Assembly (NCBI RefSeq): GCF_000685865.1
Contig: NZ_JMKS01000003.1
Location: 868,001-932,000 of the forward strand
From: Exiguobacterium antarcticum DSM 14480
Lineage (GTDB): Bacteria; Bacillota; Bacilli; Exiguobacteriales; Exiguobacteriaceae
Direction: 5' to 3'
DNA length: 64,000 bases
Below are positions 22,054-27,594 of the stretch, piece after piece. Under the pieces are notes generated by a model. It worked only from the letters and a program-made list of their open reading frames with translations, did not search any database and was not told the DNA's origin. The position numbers and the translations under genes were made by a program. Each line of letters opens with the position of its first letter. The first letter of the stretch is position 1.

Positions 22054-24801
22054 TTAGTATTTCGTTGTTTCTTTTAATTTATAACCATTTGATAATTCGA
22101 GCCAGATCGTTTTTCCTTTTTTCGTTTTCACTTGGATATACGGGCGACCCTGGGAGACACGTAATTCAAGTAGATCCCCTTGTTGATCGGCATGGGTTTC
22201 GCTCGCTTTATCCCACTTCCCAGCAAGTTGACGTTCAATGAAGATATGTTTTCCTTTTTGAACGGCACGCCATTTTCCAATTTCCGCTTTTCCGTTGACC
22301 GCAACAGCACTTTCCATCCCTTGAATCGAGATGATTGCCGGGTCATGGTCACTTGCACTACCGTCTGCTTCCATATAATCCGAGTTGATGTTGACGATAT
22401 CAGAAGAGGTATACGGTTTTAGATTTTTTGAAATCAAGACGTGGTCGAGCACTTGGGCATTTCCGTTATAGATGTATGAATAACGTTCAGATTTTGGAAG
22501 GTCATCGACCGTGTTCCAGAGGTTGTCCCCTTTTAAGATATCAAGTGTTTTCGAGAACTGGAAGTCGTTTAAGTCACCGAGAACGACGACATTTGAATCT
22601 TTCACTTCTGTTTCGAGCTCATTGACGAAATCTTGAACGATTTTGGCAATCGCATGGCGCTGGACTTCACTCTTACGAACGACCGGTTGATTTTTACCGA
22701 AATCTGCTCCGTCGCCACCTTTTGAGTTAAAGTGGTTGGCGATGACGTGATATGACTCACCCTTGAAGATGAATTCTCCAACAAGTGGTTTCCGCGAACT
22801 CGCAAAGTTCGGATCCGTTGGCTGAATACGTCCCGGGTTTTTCGTCACTTTACCATTCTCAACCGCGACCGCTTCCGTTGCTGTCCCTTTTTCACCTGGC
22901 GCAAGTGAAACGCGTGCCGGGTTGTACAAGAAGCCAACACGAATGTTTCCACCTGGCTGTCCACCATCTTTTTTATCTTCCGGTGCGATATCCGTATACG
23001 CATAACGAACACCTGTCTTCGCTTCAATCGCGGCAATCAATGTCTCAAACGATTTTGATGCATCGACTGTCCCACTGTCTGTTGCTCCGTCGTTGTCTTG
23101 CATTTCCGTCAATCCGACGATATCCGGTGTTTTTAAGAAAGTCGCGATTCCTTCTGAAACACGGTCGACCTTCCCGGCATTTGCCGTCGAAGCAAAGTTC
23201 TCGACGTTATATGAGGCGACGGTCAGACGCGAGTCACCCGTTTCGATGTTCGTCGGTTGGCGATCGACTTCACTCGTAATCAATGTCGGTAAATCCACTG
23301 CTTTGGCAAGAACTTTGTAGGCCGAATAGTTGTAACTCATGACCCCTTCAATCGTCCCTTCAAAACGATCACCTGATTTGGCACGGTATGAGCTGCTTCC
23401 CATCTCGACGAACAGACGCTCCGGGTTGACGTTATCTGCCGTTAAGATAGGTGTTCCGCGTTTCGTGTAGTCCTTATTCGCCGTCTGTGTCCGGACTGGA
23501 ATCGTCCGGTTCGCTTGTGGACCTGTGACGACCGCGTTCGGAAGTGCGACACGCATCCCTTCGACACTTTCATATAAATCGATTGCGTCTTCTGCTGGAT
23601 CGAATTCGGCAAACGAATCATTATCGACGACTTGCGTCGGAATCAAGACACCATTTTCCCCGAGAACGACACTTGCTGGCAATCCTGTATTCAAGGCACC
23701 CTTGACGAGATTGACCGTACTGATTTCTGTAACGGCAAGATCCGTATCGAATTTGTCACTGTATCCGCCAAGCAGCCATTCCTTGACGTAACCTGTCGTT
23801 GCGACCGTTTGTCCGATGGCAGCACCATGGTTTTTCGCATAAACCAAGACACCTTCTGATGTTTTACTGTTGTTATCTGGATTCGGGTCTTGCATGTAGA
23901 AGTTGTTTGCATCGACGATATATGTGACGACACCTGTCGTCCGGACGAGTTGATCCGCGTATGGAGACGTATGGGCGACACCTTGAATACTGCTGATTTT
24001 TGTGATTGGCGGAGCGATGTAGTATTTGAATGTCGAGACGGCCGACGATTTGCCGTCTTTGATTGCGATTGCTTGAATCGTCAGTTCGTCATTGATCGTG
24101 ATCGGACCTGAGTAAACCGGACTTTCTGCCGTTGGTGTCGAACCGTCGATCGTGTAGTGAATTTTTCCTTCACCTGTCAACGTGACCTGATCACCACGTT
24201 CGACTTCTCCGACCGGTGATGCTGTTGGTGCGACTAAGATGTCTCCTGCTTCAGCAGCATGTGTTCCGAGATCCGTCAGCGTATCGACCGGGAAGCTTGT
24301 CCACTGCGACGGTTCGTACGTTTTTGATCCTGATGTCACGTTCGTCTTCCGGACGAGTGTCGTATCTTTTGCAAAGTCGGTACTTGATCCGACCGGTCCG
24401 ATGATGTCGAGGACGACATCGCCTTTTTTCAAGGCGACCGGATCATTTCCGTTAAAATTCAATGATCCTGTTGTTTGTTGTGCTTTCCCTTTGATGTCCG
24501 CATTCGCACTTGAGTTCGCGATGACAAACGTTTTGCCCGGATCAATCGTCCCTGAGAGCGTGATTTTTGCTTCCGTTGGTCCACCATTCGTATATTGAAC
24601 AAGCGTGTAATCAGCTAAGTTGATGATTTGCCCCGAACCATTGTAAATCTCGATCGCTTTGTTGTTACTCGATCCTTCTATGTACTCGGACAAGATGACG
24701 CCTTCGCCTTCTGCCCCGACCGTGATTCCTGCTTGTGGAAGAATTCCTGCTGTTAACGCTCCGACCAATGCCCACTTCCCAAACGTACTGCCGTTCTTCA
24801 T
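22054..24801 (-). CDS. Secreted ExeM/NucH-family extracellular endonuclease
   Basis: 915 residues with signal peptide (GALTAGILPQAGITVGA). Domain order: lamin-tail domain (about 30-150, ILSEYIEGSSNNKAIEIYNG), chitobiase C-terminal-like beta domain (about 195-262, YTIDGSTPTAESPVYSGP), OB-fold nucleic-acid-binding region (about 265-500), then the endonuclease/exonuclease/phosphatase catalytic domain (about 527-825). Catalytic motifs are LTVASYNVENF, GLTEMQDNDG, VVLGDLNDF and the final SDHDPAII. The last 80 residues look like an SH3-type wall-binding module. It degrades extracellular DNA, for nutrient use or biofilm turnover. ATG 24801 follows a GGGGGT site; the structured RNA lies upstream. Confidence 0.9.
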   Translation of the reverse strand: MKNGSTFGKWALVGALTAGILPQAGITVGAEGEGVILSEYIEGSSNNKAIEIYNGSGQIINLADYTLVQYTNGGPTEAKITLSGTIDPGKTFVIANSSANADIKGKAQQTTGSLNFNGNDPVALKKGDVVLDIIGPVGSSTDFAKDTTLVRKTNVTSGSKTYEPSQWTSFPVDTLTDLGTHAAEAGDILVAPTASPVGEVERGDQVTLTGEGKIHYTIDGSTPTAESPVYSGPITINDELTIQAIAIKDGKSSAVSTFKYYIAPPITKISSIQGVAHTSPYADQLVRTTGVVTYIVDANNFYMQDPNPDNNSKTSEGVLVYAKNHGAAIGQTVATTGYVKEWLLGGYSDKFDTDLAVTEISTVNLVKGALNTGLPASVVLGENGVLIPTQVVDNDSFAEFDPAEDAIDLYESVEGMRVALPNAVVTGPQANRTIPVRTQTANKDYTKRGTPILTADNVNPERLFVEMGSSSYRAKSGDRFEGTIEGVMSYNYSAYKVLAKAVDLPTLITSEVDRQPTNIETGDSRLTVASYNVENFASTANAGKVDRVSEGIATFLKTPDIVGLTEMQDNDGATDSGTVDASKSFETLIAAIEAKTGVRYAYTDIAPEDKKDGGQPGGNIRVGFLYNPARVSLAPGEKGTATEAVAVENGKVTKNPGRIQPTDPNFASSRKPLVGEFIFKGESYHVIANHFNSKGGDGADFGKNQPVVRKSEVQRHAIAKIVQDFVNELETEVKDSNVVVLGDLNDFQFSKTLDILKGDNLWNTVDDLPKSERYSYIYNGNAQVLDHVLISKNLKPYTSSDIVNINSDYMEADGSASDHDPAIISIQGMESAVAVNGKAEIGKWRAVQKGKHIFIERQLAGKWDKASETHADQQGDLLELRVSQGRPYIQVKTKKGKTIWLELSNGYKLKETTKY

Positions 24802-24994
24802 GATGTTGACCCCCTATGAATTTTCTGACACTTCTTTATATTATCAGATATATTTGCTAACAGTGTATGTTTTATGTAAAAAAAGACCCTAATATTCGTA
24901 AAAGAATTAATTGTTAACGCTTACAAAAAATAATCATTCGTCTTTACATATATCCTCACTCCTTTTGTTTGTTACAAGGATTAAAAAAAGACAT

Positions 24995-25016
24995 AAAAAA
25001 AACGCCTTCTCAGCGT
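24995..25016 (-). terminator. Terminator at the 3' end of the structured RNA
   Basis: On the minus strand ACGC (25016-25013), a 7-base loop and GCGT (25005-25002) followed by a run of eight T. The stem is short, so termination strength is uncertain; an A-run upstream can add A-U pairs. Confidence 0.55.
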
Positions 25017-25397
25017 GTCTGTTTTTTTAGGTGTCATGAGAATCGAGGATACAGGTGATCAAAACACCTGAAACGACGAAAGCCCTACCTCTCTTTCGTT
25101 GTTACGGCTCCTTGGCCGCGCCAGCTGAATCAAGCGTTTTAGCAAGAATCAAGTTACGCCTTACGTTGCGTATTTACTGGGATTTTTAGAATTTCGCTCG
25201 GAATGAGCTGAAAAGTATCGAATGGAAGGTTTATCTTGCTGGGTCAACTTCTTCTAGATGAACAGAAGAAGGACAAAATAAAAGCGATGACTTATGTCTG
25301 ACTCATTTGTCAGTAAGGTCTAAAAATCCTGACCTGATTATTAAATTGTGTATTTAGTGATGGATTCTCACATGAGTGATCATCCCCGATTCATGAC
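24995..25397 (-). ncRNA. Unassigned large structured RNA (about 365-400 nt)
   Basis: Not coding on either strand. Read on the minus strand, the 5' segment GTCATGAATCGGGGAT (25397-25382) pairs with the 3' segment ATCCTCGATTCTCATGAC (25050-25033): 16 pairs, one G-U and a 2-base bulge. That helix closes a 365-nt RNA. Inside are at least eight local hairpins: AGGTC/GACCT, CTGAC/GTCAG, CTTCTTCT/AGAAGAAG, GCTC/GAGC, TACGC/GCGTA, CGGC/GCCG, ACGAAAG/CTTTCGT and CAGGTG/CACCTG. A consensus promoter would start transcription at the first base of the closing helix, and a short stem plus eight U follows. Motifs of RNase P, tmRNA, SRP and S-box RNAs are absent. A large cis-acting leader of the nuclease gene is the main alternative to a free RNA. 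Confidence 0.75.
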
Positions 25398-25404
25398 AAA
25401 ATTT

Positions 25405-25434
25405 ATTATATCACATTTTATTTTATAAAGTCAA
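25405..25434 (-). promoter_or_regulatory. Strong sigma-A promoter of the structured RNA
   Basis: On the minus strand TTGACT (25434-25429), an 18-base AT-rich spacer and a perfect TATAAT (25410-25405). The expected start about 7 bases downstream (near 25398) coincides with the first paired base of the closing helix. Confidence 0.8.
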
Positions 25435-25560
25435 TCTTTTTCTAGGAATATCTATTTTCACAAAAACGGTTCGACGTTGATTCGCCTTTAAAAAATCGGT
25501 ATCGTTAAGTGAACGCTATTCCTAACGACATTATTATAGAAGAAAAGAGGTTTTAGAGAG

Positions 25561-27594
25561 ATGGCGACGAACCGATTGATCCATGAAAAGAGTCCCTACT
25601 TGCTTCAACATGCTACGAATCCTGTTGACTGGTACCCGTGGGGAGAAGAAGCGTTCTCCCTCGCCCGAGCGACGAACAAACCGATCTTCTTATCGATTGG
25701 TTATTCGACCTGTCACTGGTGCCATGTCCTGGCGCATGAAAGTTTTGAGGATGAAGAGACGGCACGTATGCTCAACGAGCGTTTCGTCTCGATTAAAGTC
25801 GATCGTGAAGAACGTCCGGATATCGATCAGATTTACATGACGGCAGCACAACTGATGAACGGCCAAGGCGGTTGGCCCCTAAGCGTTTTTCTGTCACCTG
25901 ATCAGACTCCGTTTTACATCGGGACCTATTTTCCGAAGACACCTCAATTCAACCGTCCCAGCTTTCGCCAGGTCATCTTGCAACTGAGTGAACATTACCG
26001 GACGGACCCGGAAAAAATCAAACGTGTTGGGAATGAACTCATTCAAGCATTGACGGATGTGACGTCCGCTGACACAACAGGTCAATTGGACGACACACTG
26101 ATTCATGACACATTTGATCAAGCGATGCGTCAGTTTGATGTCCAGAATGGAGGATTTGGCGAAGCGCCGAAGTTCCCATCCCCATCACTGCTGACATTCC
26201 TGCTTGATTACTACCGGTTCGCAGAAGATGAAACGGCTTTGCAGATGGTCATGCGGACGCTGACGGCGATGCGCGATGGTGGAATCACCGATCAGATTGG
26301 TTTTGGTCTTTGTCGATACACAGTCGATGAACGATGGGACGTTCCGCACTTCGAAAAAATGCTGTATGACAATGCTTTATTCGCGACGTTATGCATCGAG
26401 ACGTATCAAGTGTCCGGTCGTGAACGCTTCAAACAGTATGCGGAAGAAGTGTTTACGTACATCGAACGCGATTTGTTGTCTCCGGACGGTGCCTTTTACT
26501 CTGCAGAAGACGCGGACAGCGAAGGGCGTGAAGGGACGTTTTATACGTTCACCTATGACGAGCTCCTCGATGTCCTTGGCGAAGACGCCCTTTTCCCACG
26601 GTTTTATCAAGCTACGCCGCAAGGAAACTTCGACGGCCGGAATGTCTTTCGACGGACCAATCAATCCGTTCAACAATTTGCAGACGATAACGGACGGACC
26701 GTTCAGAAAACATTGTTCCAACTCGAACAAGAACGACAGACCTTACTCCATGTCCGCAGTCAACGCATCCGCCCATTTCGAGATGACAAAATCCTGACGG
26801 CTTGGAACGCCTTGATGATTTCCGCCTATGCGAAGGCGGGACGGGTGTTTGATGACCACCACTACACGGATGTCGCAATACGCGCTTTGACGTTCCTCGA
26901 GACCCATCTGATGGATGACGATCGGTTGCGCGTCCGTTATCGGGAAGGTCACATCCAAGGAAATGGGTTTCTGGACGACTACAGTTTTTTGACGGAAGCC
27001 TATCTGGAATTACATCAAACGACGCAACAGACCGTTTATATCCAGCAAGCACTCCGCCTGACGGATCGAATGATTCAGGACTTTGGTGATGAGCAGGGTA
27101 GCTTTTTCTTTACTTCTGTCGAGGAGGAGACGCTGCTCGTACGCCCAAAAGATATATATGACGGTGTGAAGCCGGCTGGAAACAGCACCGCTGTCTTGAA
27201 TCTCATTCGTCTGTCACAGCTGACAGGGCGAACGGATTATCGCGAGTGTGCCCAGCACGTCTTTTCGGCACTTGCTTTGGAAGTCGCGTCACAGCCAACC
27301 GGTTTCGCAAGTTTATTAAGTGCCTATGTCCGGACCTGGTTAGAACCAAAAGAATTAATCATGTTGACGGATTCACTCGAAACGATTGGACCGTTCTTGG
27401 CAGACCTTCATAAACGACGTTTGCCGGAACTTTCGGTGCTCGCCGGCAAAAAAGAGACGCTTCTAAAAGTCGCCCCCTTTATCGCGGACTATGATCTCAT
27501 CGATTCGCGCCCAACTGCTTATCTGTGCCAAGACTTTCAGTGTGAACGCCCGACAACGAACCTCTCGGAACTCCTCCATCAGATCATCGAATGA
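25561..27594 (+). CDS. YyaL-like thioredoxin-domain protein (DUF255 / SSP411 family)
   Basis: 677 residues. The N-terminal thioredoxin-like domain (about 1-165) begins [25 protein letters not shown] (region of residues 3-27) and has the C-x-x-C pair Cys51/Cys54 in STCHWCHV. The rest (about 190-670) is an (alpha/alpha)6 barrel resembling sugar epimerases and glucosidases: [38 protein letters not shown] and [10 protein letters not shown]. The family is widespread, and its function is unproven. ATG 25561 follows GAGAG. Monocistronic, with its own terminator. Confidence 0.92.

Follow-up and report, generated by a model that had tools for sequence, protein, structure and literature searches.

The question raised by this locus is whether the region 24995-25434 of the window (the whole stretch of 64,000 nucleotides analysed here, from Exiguobacterium antarcticum DSM 14480) encodes a free structured RNA or the very large leader of a nuclease gene, and to which family such an RNA would belong. 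A reading of the sequence alone (the sequence-only reading) had described a structured RNA extending from a promoter to a terminator on the minus strand, without any recognised family.

Predicted transcription unit

The features of the predicted unit and its two neighbours are the following:

25429..25434, minus strand: -35 hexamer TTGACT (11/12 matches together with the -10 hexamer)
25405..25410, minus strand: -10 hexamer TATAAT with TG in front (promoter scan)
24995..25397, minus strand: predicted RNA of about 400 nt (5' end placed from the -10 hexamer, 3' end from the T-run)
24995..25019, minus strand: intrinsic terminator, a 5-pair stem (25016-25002) followed by T8
22054..24801, minus strand: downstream gene, LTD / endonuclease-exonuclease-phosphatase protein (Pfam), the secreted nuclease of the sequence-only reading
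25561..27594, plus strand: divergent upstream gene, DsbH/DUF255 thioredoxin-domain protein (Pfam)

The promoter TTGACT-18-TATAAT (25434-25405), with its extended TG, and the short stem followed by eight T were both found again where they had been proposed. Sites of both kinds are not uncommon when only their number is considered: the region contains three promoter-like sites against 2.1 +/- 1.6 in shuffled sequences and two terminator-like sites against 0.5 +/- 0.7. The lack of a coding frame also holds: no ORF of at least 60 amino acids overlaps 24995-25434. For the predicted RNA the folding energy is -114.6 kcal/mol, whereas shuffled sequences average -89.7 +/- 5.6 kcal/mol (z -4.43), and none of 100 shuffles was as good, which confirms a structured, non-coding RNA predicted from promoter to terminator on the minus strand. 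The region is present in all 18 relatives searched within the genus, with 79-98% identity. Among 16 relatives searched for the neighbouring DsbH-like protein, the more distant ones retain only 61-64% identity. The domains of the nuclease and of DsbH, like those of Amj and CarD mentioned below, were assigned by Pfam.

A conserved three-way junction

The conserved part of the predicted RNA comprises three helices, named P1, P2 and P3:

25055..25141, minus strand: three-way-junction core (match of the model R1, E 4.2e-25; the R1 alignment includes this sequence)
25130..25140, minus strand: 5' strand of P1, AAAACGCTTGA (five bases paired in the model, the remainder being a genus-own extension by eye)
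25061..25071, minus strand: 3' strand of P1, TCAGGTGTTTT (alignment and model)
25105..25120, minus strand: P2 hairpin (both-sided changes at 5/5 pairs, 84 distinct rows)
25075..25100, minus strand: P3 hairpin with the conserved loop AGAGGTAGGG (both-sided changes at 6/8 pairs)
25052..25070, minus strand: alternative perfect hairpin CAGGTGTTTTGATCACCTG overlapping the 3' strand of P1 (identical in 19/19 genus genomes)

An alignment of 87 cores was realized from 115 loci after exclusion of 28 near-duplicates. By tally it spans 53 genera of the class, and the genus of the window is represented by six rows. A structure of 18 pairs (five in P1, five in P2 and eight in P3) was named by hand from this alignment. 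In the R1 class defined in this way, 94.4% of the cells are paired, and 15 of the 18 pairs change on both sides (263 cells), with P1, P2 and P3 all backed by compensatory changes. None of 500 shuffles reaches any of the five measures used, and slid partners pair in 29-50% of cells, a comparison that favours the 18-pair structure because it was read from the alignment under test. Comparison of the cores shows that a predicted three-way junction of about 75 nt is conserved on the minus strand. The nucleotides of the junction and loops are near-invariant in the alignment, with unpaired stretches around UUCACACUGG, AAGGA and AGAGGUAGGG; the junction of the window itself has AACAAC where most other copies have AAGGA. 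The hairpin CAGGTGTTTTGATCACCTG would compete with P1 and may form a conformational switch.

Strand of the RNA and the Rfam family BsrC

The Rfam scan of the window at the gathering thresholds gave two matches. One is a SAM riboswitch (RF00162; 17398-17501, plus strand, 84.6 bits), distant from this locus. The other covers the junction:

25063..25148, plus strand: match of Rfam BsrC (RF01410), 73.3 bits, antisense to the predicted RNA

The BsrC score is above the gathering score of 38 bits and all 87 positions of the model are matched; the core of the window obtains an E value of 7.7e-13 with RF01410, against 4.2e-25 with R1, a model whose alignment includes it. The absence of a recognised family claimed by the sequence-only reading was thus mistaken, and a confident Rfam match exists as to the letter, but on the strand opposite to the predicted RNA. 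The same reading had noted that motifs of RNase P, tmRNA, SRP, 6S, OLE and S-box RNAs are lacking, rightly so: at this locus none of these models, SAM riboswitch included, matches in the Rfam scan, where only BsrC (plus strand) reaches its threshold.

The 87 cores were folded with RNAalifold in both orientations. The sense orientation (minus strand in the window) gives -13.04 kcal/mol and 17 pairs, 14 of them with compensatory changes, whereas the reverse-complemented cores give -1.82 kcal/mol and three pairs. In the 17 sense pairs, 222 cells are G-U or U-G (A-C on the other strand) and 20 are A-C or C-A, an excess favoured by the fact that the pairs were picked on the sense strand. These consensus energies and the compensatory changes in 15 of 18 pairs back the choice of the minus strand, and comparative folding thus favours the strand opposite to that of the BsrC model. 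RF01410 appears to model the complement of the RNA that folds. The two entries share the same DNA segment (25063-25148, 73.3 bits; ydaG-ydaH in B. subtilis); Rfam describes one hairpin over 87 nt, whereas a three-way junction within a longer unit is predicted here on the opposite strand. An antisense transcript may exist alongside the sense RNA, given the Rfam entry on the other strand. No paper naming RF01410 was found, nor any correction of the BsrC strand in a literature from which subscription journals were largely out of reach, and BsrC is absent from the accessible text of PMC6429828 and PMC4342826.

Pairing of the ends and architecture of the units

The helix joining the 5' and 3' ends of the predicted RNA was recovered with slightly longer strands than those proposed from the sequence alone:

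25378..25397, minus strand: closing helix, 5' strand (fold; architecture common to other families)
25033..25052, minus strand: closing helix, 3' strand (fold)

Its 5' strand is nearly invariant within the genus (9 of 19 rows viewed), so that the genus alone gives no compensatory change there. The pairing of the ends was scored across families by two methods. In the stricter one, a helix score, 21 loci were listed, L064 was left out because no terminator was entered, and 20 were scored; terminator starts were set by eye before scoring, as were the start offsets of L116 and L052. Over these 20 selected loci, units with a promoter and a terminator, the 5' end pairs with the sequence just ahead of the terminator better than with swapped partners: the mean for own pairs is 25.4 against 19.6 +/- 0.87 (0 of 50,000 permutations). 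Without the window's own locus (L001) the values are 25.0 and 19.8 (0 of 20,000 permutations), and the test was also repeated without L001 and L056. Taken one by one, only 6 of the 20 loci reach p < 0.05 when compared with shuffled sequences. The looser duplex test allowed large loops and gave a weaker signal: 28 loci were listed, 10 without a detected terminator were dropped, and among the 18 scored four have p < 0.05 (mean z -0.65, permutation p 0.001). Between the two tests L023, L034, L044, L055, L058, L067, L083 and L086 were dropped, L044 and L086 after having been scored in the looser test, and L052 was added. As to whether the closing helix is kept in relatives, the ends thus pair across families in the R1 class, over 20 selected loci, although the genus by itself shows no covariation.

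A switch proposed near the terminator, in which AGGTGT would pair alternatively with ACACCT, was rejected: ACCTAA follows the closing helix in only 7 of 19 genus genomes, and AACCAA or AACTAA in the other 12.

In 18 other loci the length of the unit was roughly estimated at 216-576 nt. Short forms have a predicted start 99-125 nt ahead of the P3 loop, and L078 and L081 display the consensus promoter TTGACA-17-TATAAT upstream of the core. Over 62 loci the mean of the best promoter score upstream is 8.73, compared with 7.92 for the reverse strand downstream; promoters are thus above the control on average, not at every locus. In the short-form group a further helix would enclose the core, with its 5' motif in 20 of 22 loci and a five-of-five partner in 20 of 20 (offsets of 12-20 in 19 loci and 0 in L115), a suggestive arrangement and no test, since the best partner was taken within 60 nt. 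A CU-rich 5' region was considered as a general Csp-binding tract and discarded, the mean pyrimidine content being only 0.54-0.58 (40 loci).

Proposed nature of the RNA

The probable explanation, in our opinion, is an autonomous minus-strand non-coding RNA gene belonging to a Bacilli-wide class filed in complement as BsrC, the junction of which would bind a partner in trans. Strand, fold and, generally, autonomy are supported by the comparison of related loci. The closed ends would protect and shape the RNA. The near-invariance of the unpaired stretches UUCACACUGG, AAGGA and AGAGGUAGGG suggests that the junction is a putative binding site of the partner acting in trans. An RNA-binding protein and the translation machinery are its likeliest candidates, and the RNA would then act as a regulator or as the scaffold of a ribonucleoprotein.

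A bolder and rather doubtful version would make it an RNP-forming or catalytic class of the rank of 6S and OLE, hidden by the complementary entry, with a divergent cis-acting prophage branch near hammerheads. OLE is a large orphan structured RNA of Gram-positive bacteria, and like such RNAs the present one is predicted to be long, structured, non-coding, widely kept and a unit of its own; it differs by the lack of any Rfam match to OLE or to other large classes at the locus and by a conserved part reduced to a compact junction of about 75 nt. With 6S RNA it shares a unit of a few hundred nucleotides with paired ends, but no 6S match was found at the locus and the shape of 6S RNA is one long bulged rod, whereas a branched junction with conserved loops is predicted here.

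Genomic context

The main alternative, which we regard as unlikely although it survives better than the others, is a cis-regulatory element whose junction would be an aptamer or sensor for the next gene, the nuclease here and csp elsewhere. The genes around the RNA were compared in 195 loci with distinct 90-nt cores, using simple gene calls of our own. Outside the genus, both neighbours were called in 182 loci: the downstream gene is on the same strand in 92 and on the opposite strand in 90, and its identity varies. A same-strand gene downstream is thus not consistent, as it would be for a leader or riboswitch, and the RNA is not generally a leader. In the window the terminator, moreover, separates the RNA from the nuclease gene. 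Of the two possibilities left by the sequence-only reading, the free RNA is retained and the nuclease leader becomes improbable; as a general explanation the latter is rejected.

Within the genus, the nuclease gene is found downstream in 19 of 19 genomes (the match of L002 begins only at residue 47), which favours the cis element. The distance from the P3 loop to the start of the nuclease is about 290-320 nt in L001-L009; in L010-L019 it reaches about 450-460 nt, and this longer spacing in 10 of 19 genomes speaks against the cis element. Among the 195 loci, the largest cluster of neighbours is csp-like with 40 members, of which 22 are downstream on the same strand, 8 downstream on the opposite strand and 10 upstream on the same strand. 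In the 22 loci, where the csp-like gene mostly begins 97-290 nt after the core, some copies may therefore be leaders. A further long hairpin was seen by eye between RNA and csp in 10 of 13 such loci viewed, and divergent prophage-like copies closely precede a Shine-Dalgarno sequence and a start codon, also by eye (L176, L177, L183, L184, L185 around 1430-1600, L187:7408-7500 and L188:6973-7064).

The second cluster is CarD, with 21 members, 20 upstream and one downstream, all on the same strand. Since neighbour loci share ancestry, the sizes of these clusters are not counts of events. The adjacency to csp and carD suggests a control linked to RNA chaperones or to the cold response. According to the accessible part of PMC8307031, csp 5' leaders carry cold-shock boxes; the RNA resembles them in preceding csp on the same strand in some Bacilli, but most of its copies are not before csp, and the likeness noted is one of position.

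Two observations concern these neighbours. The hairpin between RNA and csp reads AUUCACAUAU...AUAUGUGAAU or similar, then UAUUUAC...GUAAAUA or similar (L035, L042, L043, L048, L055, L069, L071, L075, L089 and L097), and looks like a separate csp leader element. The pair formed by carD and the RNA is very similar across several families (L026, L027, L030, L031, L117 and L189:6957-7044); together with a 95-bit copy on an IMG/VR contig, this similarity suggests lateral movement.

A divergent prophage-like branch

A search with R1 in 12 chosen genomes added 17 matches, all weak (E 2.6e-4 to 7.8e-11), 15 of which became loci. Most of these 15 divergent loci display UGGCGCAG..GGA.CUGCAA.GG and AGAGGU.GGG or a related loop (by eye). 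L172 looks like a stand-alone copy that has diverged, and the status of L173 is doubtful. The prophage-like type also occurs on two IMG/VR contigs; it is a third that has the 95-bit copy, of chromosomal type. The two proteins adjoining the copy of L176 have no Pfam match, and L187 carries, by reading, YqaJ- and RecT-like genes.

These loci raise the idea that the three-way junction, with its conserved loops, is a self-cleaving ribozyme or the relic of one, found in prophage-like loci near type II hammerheads. The 17 divergent matches, the near-invariant junction and loop nucleotides and the presence of Hammerhead_II above its Rfam threshold next to L177 and L185, among 15 scanned loci, are in its favour. 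We judge it improbable: the known ribozyme models of Rfam have no match at the locus of the window, the junction itself has no Rfam match in L171-L186, and the predicted promoter-terminator unit counts against it, because stand-alone units are unusual for self-cleaving motifs.

The copies of Bacillus subtilis and published data

The genome G396, which we take to be that of B. subtilis strain 168, contains two copies on a contig of 4,215,606 bases. RF01410 matches 474413-474499 (minus) and 559894-559980 (plus), and the R1 sense cores are on the opposite strands at 474420-474507 (plus) and 559886-559973 (minus). The first copy sits between ydaG, presumably so from the sequence of the encoded protein, and amj, of which we take ydaH to be the older name; both genes run in the same direction as the sense core, on the plus strand. 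A promoter chosen by eye, TTGTGT-17-TATTAT, places the start at 474,266 (the -10 hexamer plus seven bases), and with a terminator ending at 474,649 the predicted unit measures about 384 nt.

The accessible part of an Hfq co-immunoprecipitation study (PMC3574147) reports a 'bsrC' peak at 474265-474410 with a ratio of 53.6, strand information being lost. The left edge of this peak and the predicted start differ by a single base. The ratio is the highest among the sRNA rows of its Table 1 that were available, and would speak for a base-pairing sRNA dependent on Hfq. Such a role is hardly likely in our view. The peak covers the 5' region and stops before the core (474410 against 474420), and Hfq is not detected in every host: at least six genomes bearing the RNA have no Hfq match (G028, G097, G110, G120, G130 and G170), which makes Hfq unlikely as an obligatory partner. 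CsrA, another conceivable partner, was detected in 179 of 299 genomes and, from a reading of both lists, is missing from about 20 genomes bearing the RNA (e.g. G028 and G067).

In strand-resolved tiling arrays, as far as the available text of PMC2784878 goes, bsrC is joined with the upstream gene; both flanking genes being on the plus strand, the joined segment must be the sense one. The second bsrC which BSGatlas places between cspC and ydeB (PMC8208703, accessible part) is the second copy found here. In the accessible text of PMC4634765, a BsrC homologue is undetected by dRNA-seq of B. amyloliquefaciens FZB42, and the expression of BsrC in B. subtilis is cited as restricted to the vegetative phase.

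The least credible explanation of all would keep BsrC, in the plus-strand orientation given by Rfam, as the functional RNA and make the minus-strand fold its mirror image. In its favour are the score of 73.3 bits, above the gathering threshold of 38, a plus-strand promoter-like site (10/12) at 24825-24854 and a 322-nt transcript of Paenibacillus riograndensis labelled BsrC by Rfam (PMC5670726, whose accessible part does not say on which strand of the model it lies). Against it, the alignment in that orientation folds at only -1.8 kcal/mol and forms 3 pairs. The closing helix, the terminators and the best of the promoters all read on the minus strand, no plus-strand terminator was found in 24750-25600, and the joined segment of B. 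subtilis fits the sense strand.

Distribution

The RNA is not restricted to the genus of the window and is Bacilli-wide. The sense model R1 matches 155 of 299 Bacilli genomes, belonging to 63 of 118 genera, and RF01410 matches 152 of the same number. Three of the 155 (G123, G231 and G250; E 3e-6 to 2e-4) are weak and phage-like or doubtful. In a sample of 299 genomes from the phylum, 10 match R1 and all ten belong to the class of the window, an outcome that depends on how much of the sample comes from other classes. The bearers named among the first 80 of 119 stretches include Paenibacillus, Bacillus, Priestia, Neobacillus, Metabacillus, Halobacillus, Alkalihalophilus and Alkalibacterium. If the strand assignment is true, about half of the sampled Bacilli genomes, B. 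subtilis included, carry a conserved structured RNA placed on the wrong strand by the Rfam model, so that automatic annotation and strand-specific data would have been read against the wrong model and a widespread RNA of the Bacilli may have been overlooked. The assignment lends itself to a direct test in B. subtilis, and it would offer a way into a conserved function of RNA in the vicinity of cold-shock and carD genes.

In the sister genus g2, of the same family as the genus of the window, R1 has no match in any of 14 genomes (G019-G024 and eight others). The RNA is thus dispensable there, and its absence is a natural loss or replacement. Finally, a contig titled Pseudomonas sp. ISL-84 (L232:4448-4490) is present among the matches listed; this record is probably mislabelled, mixed or contaminated.
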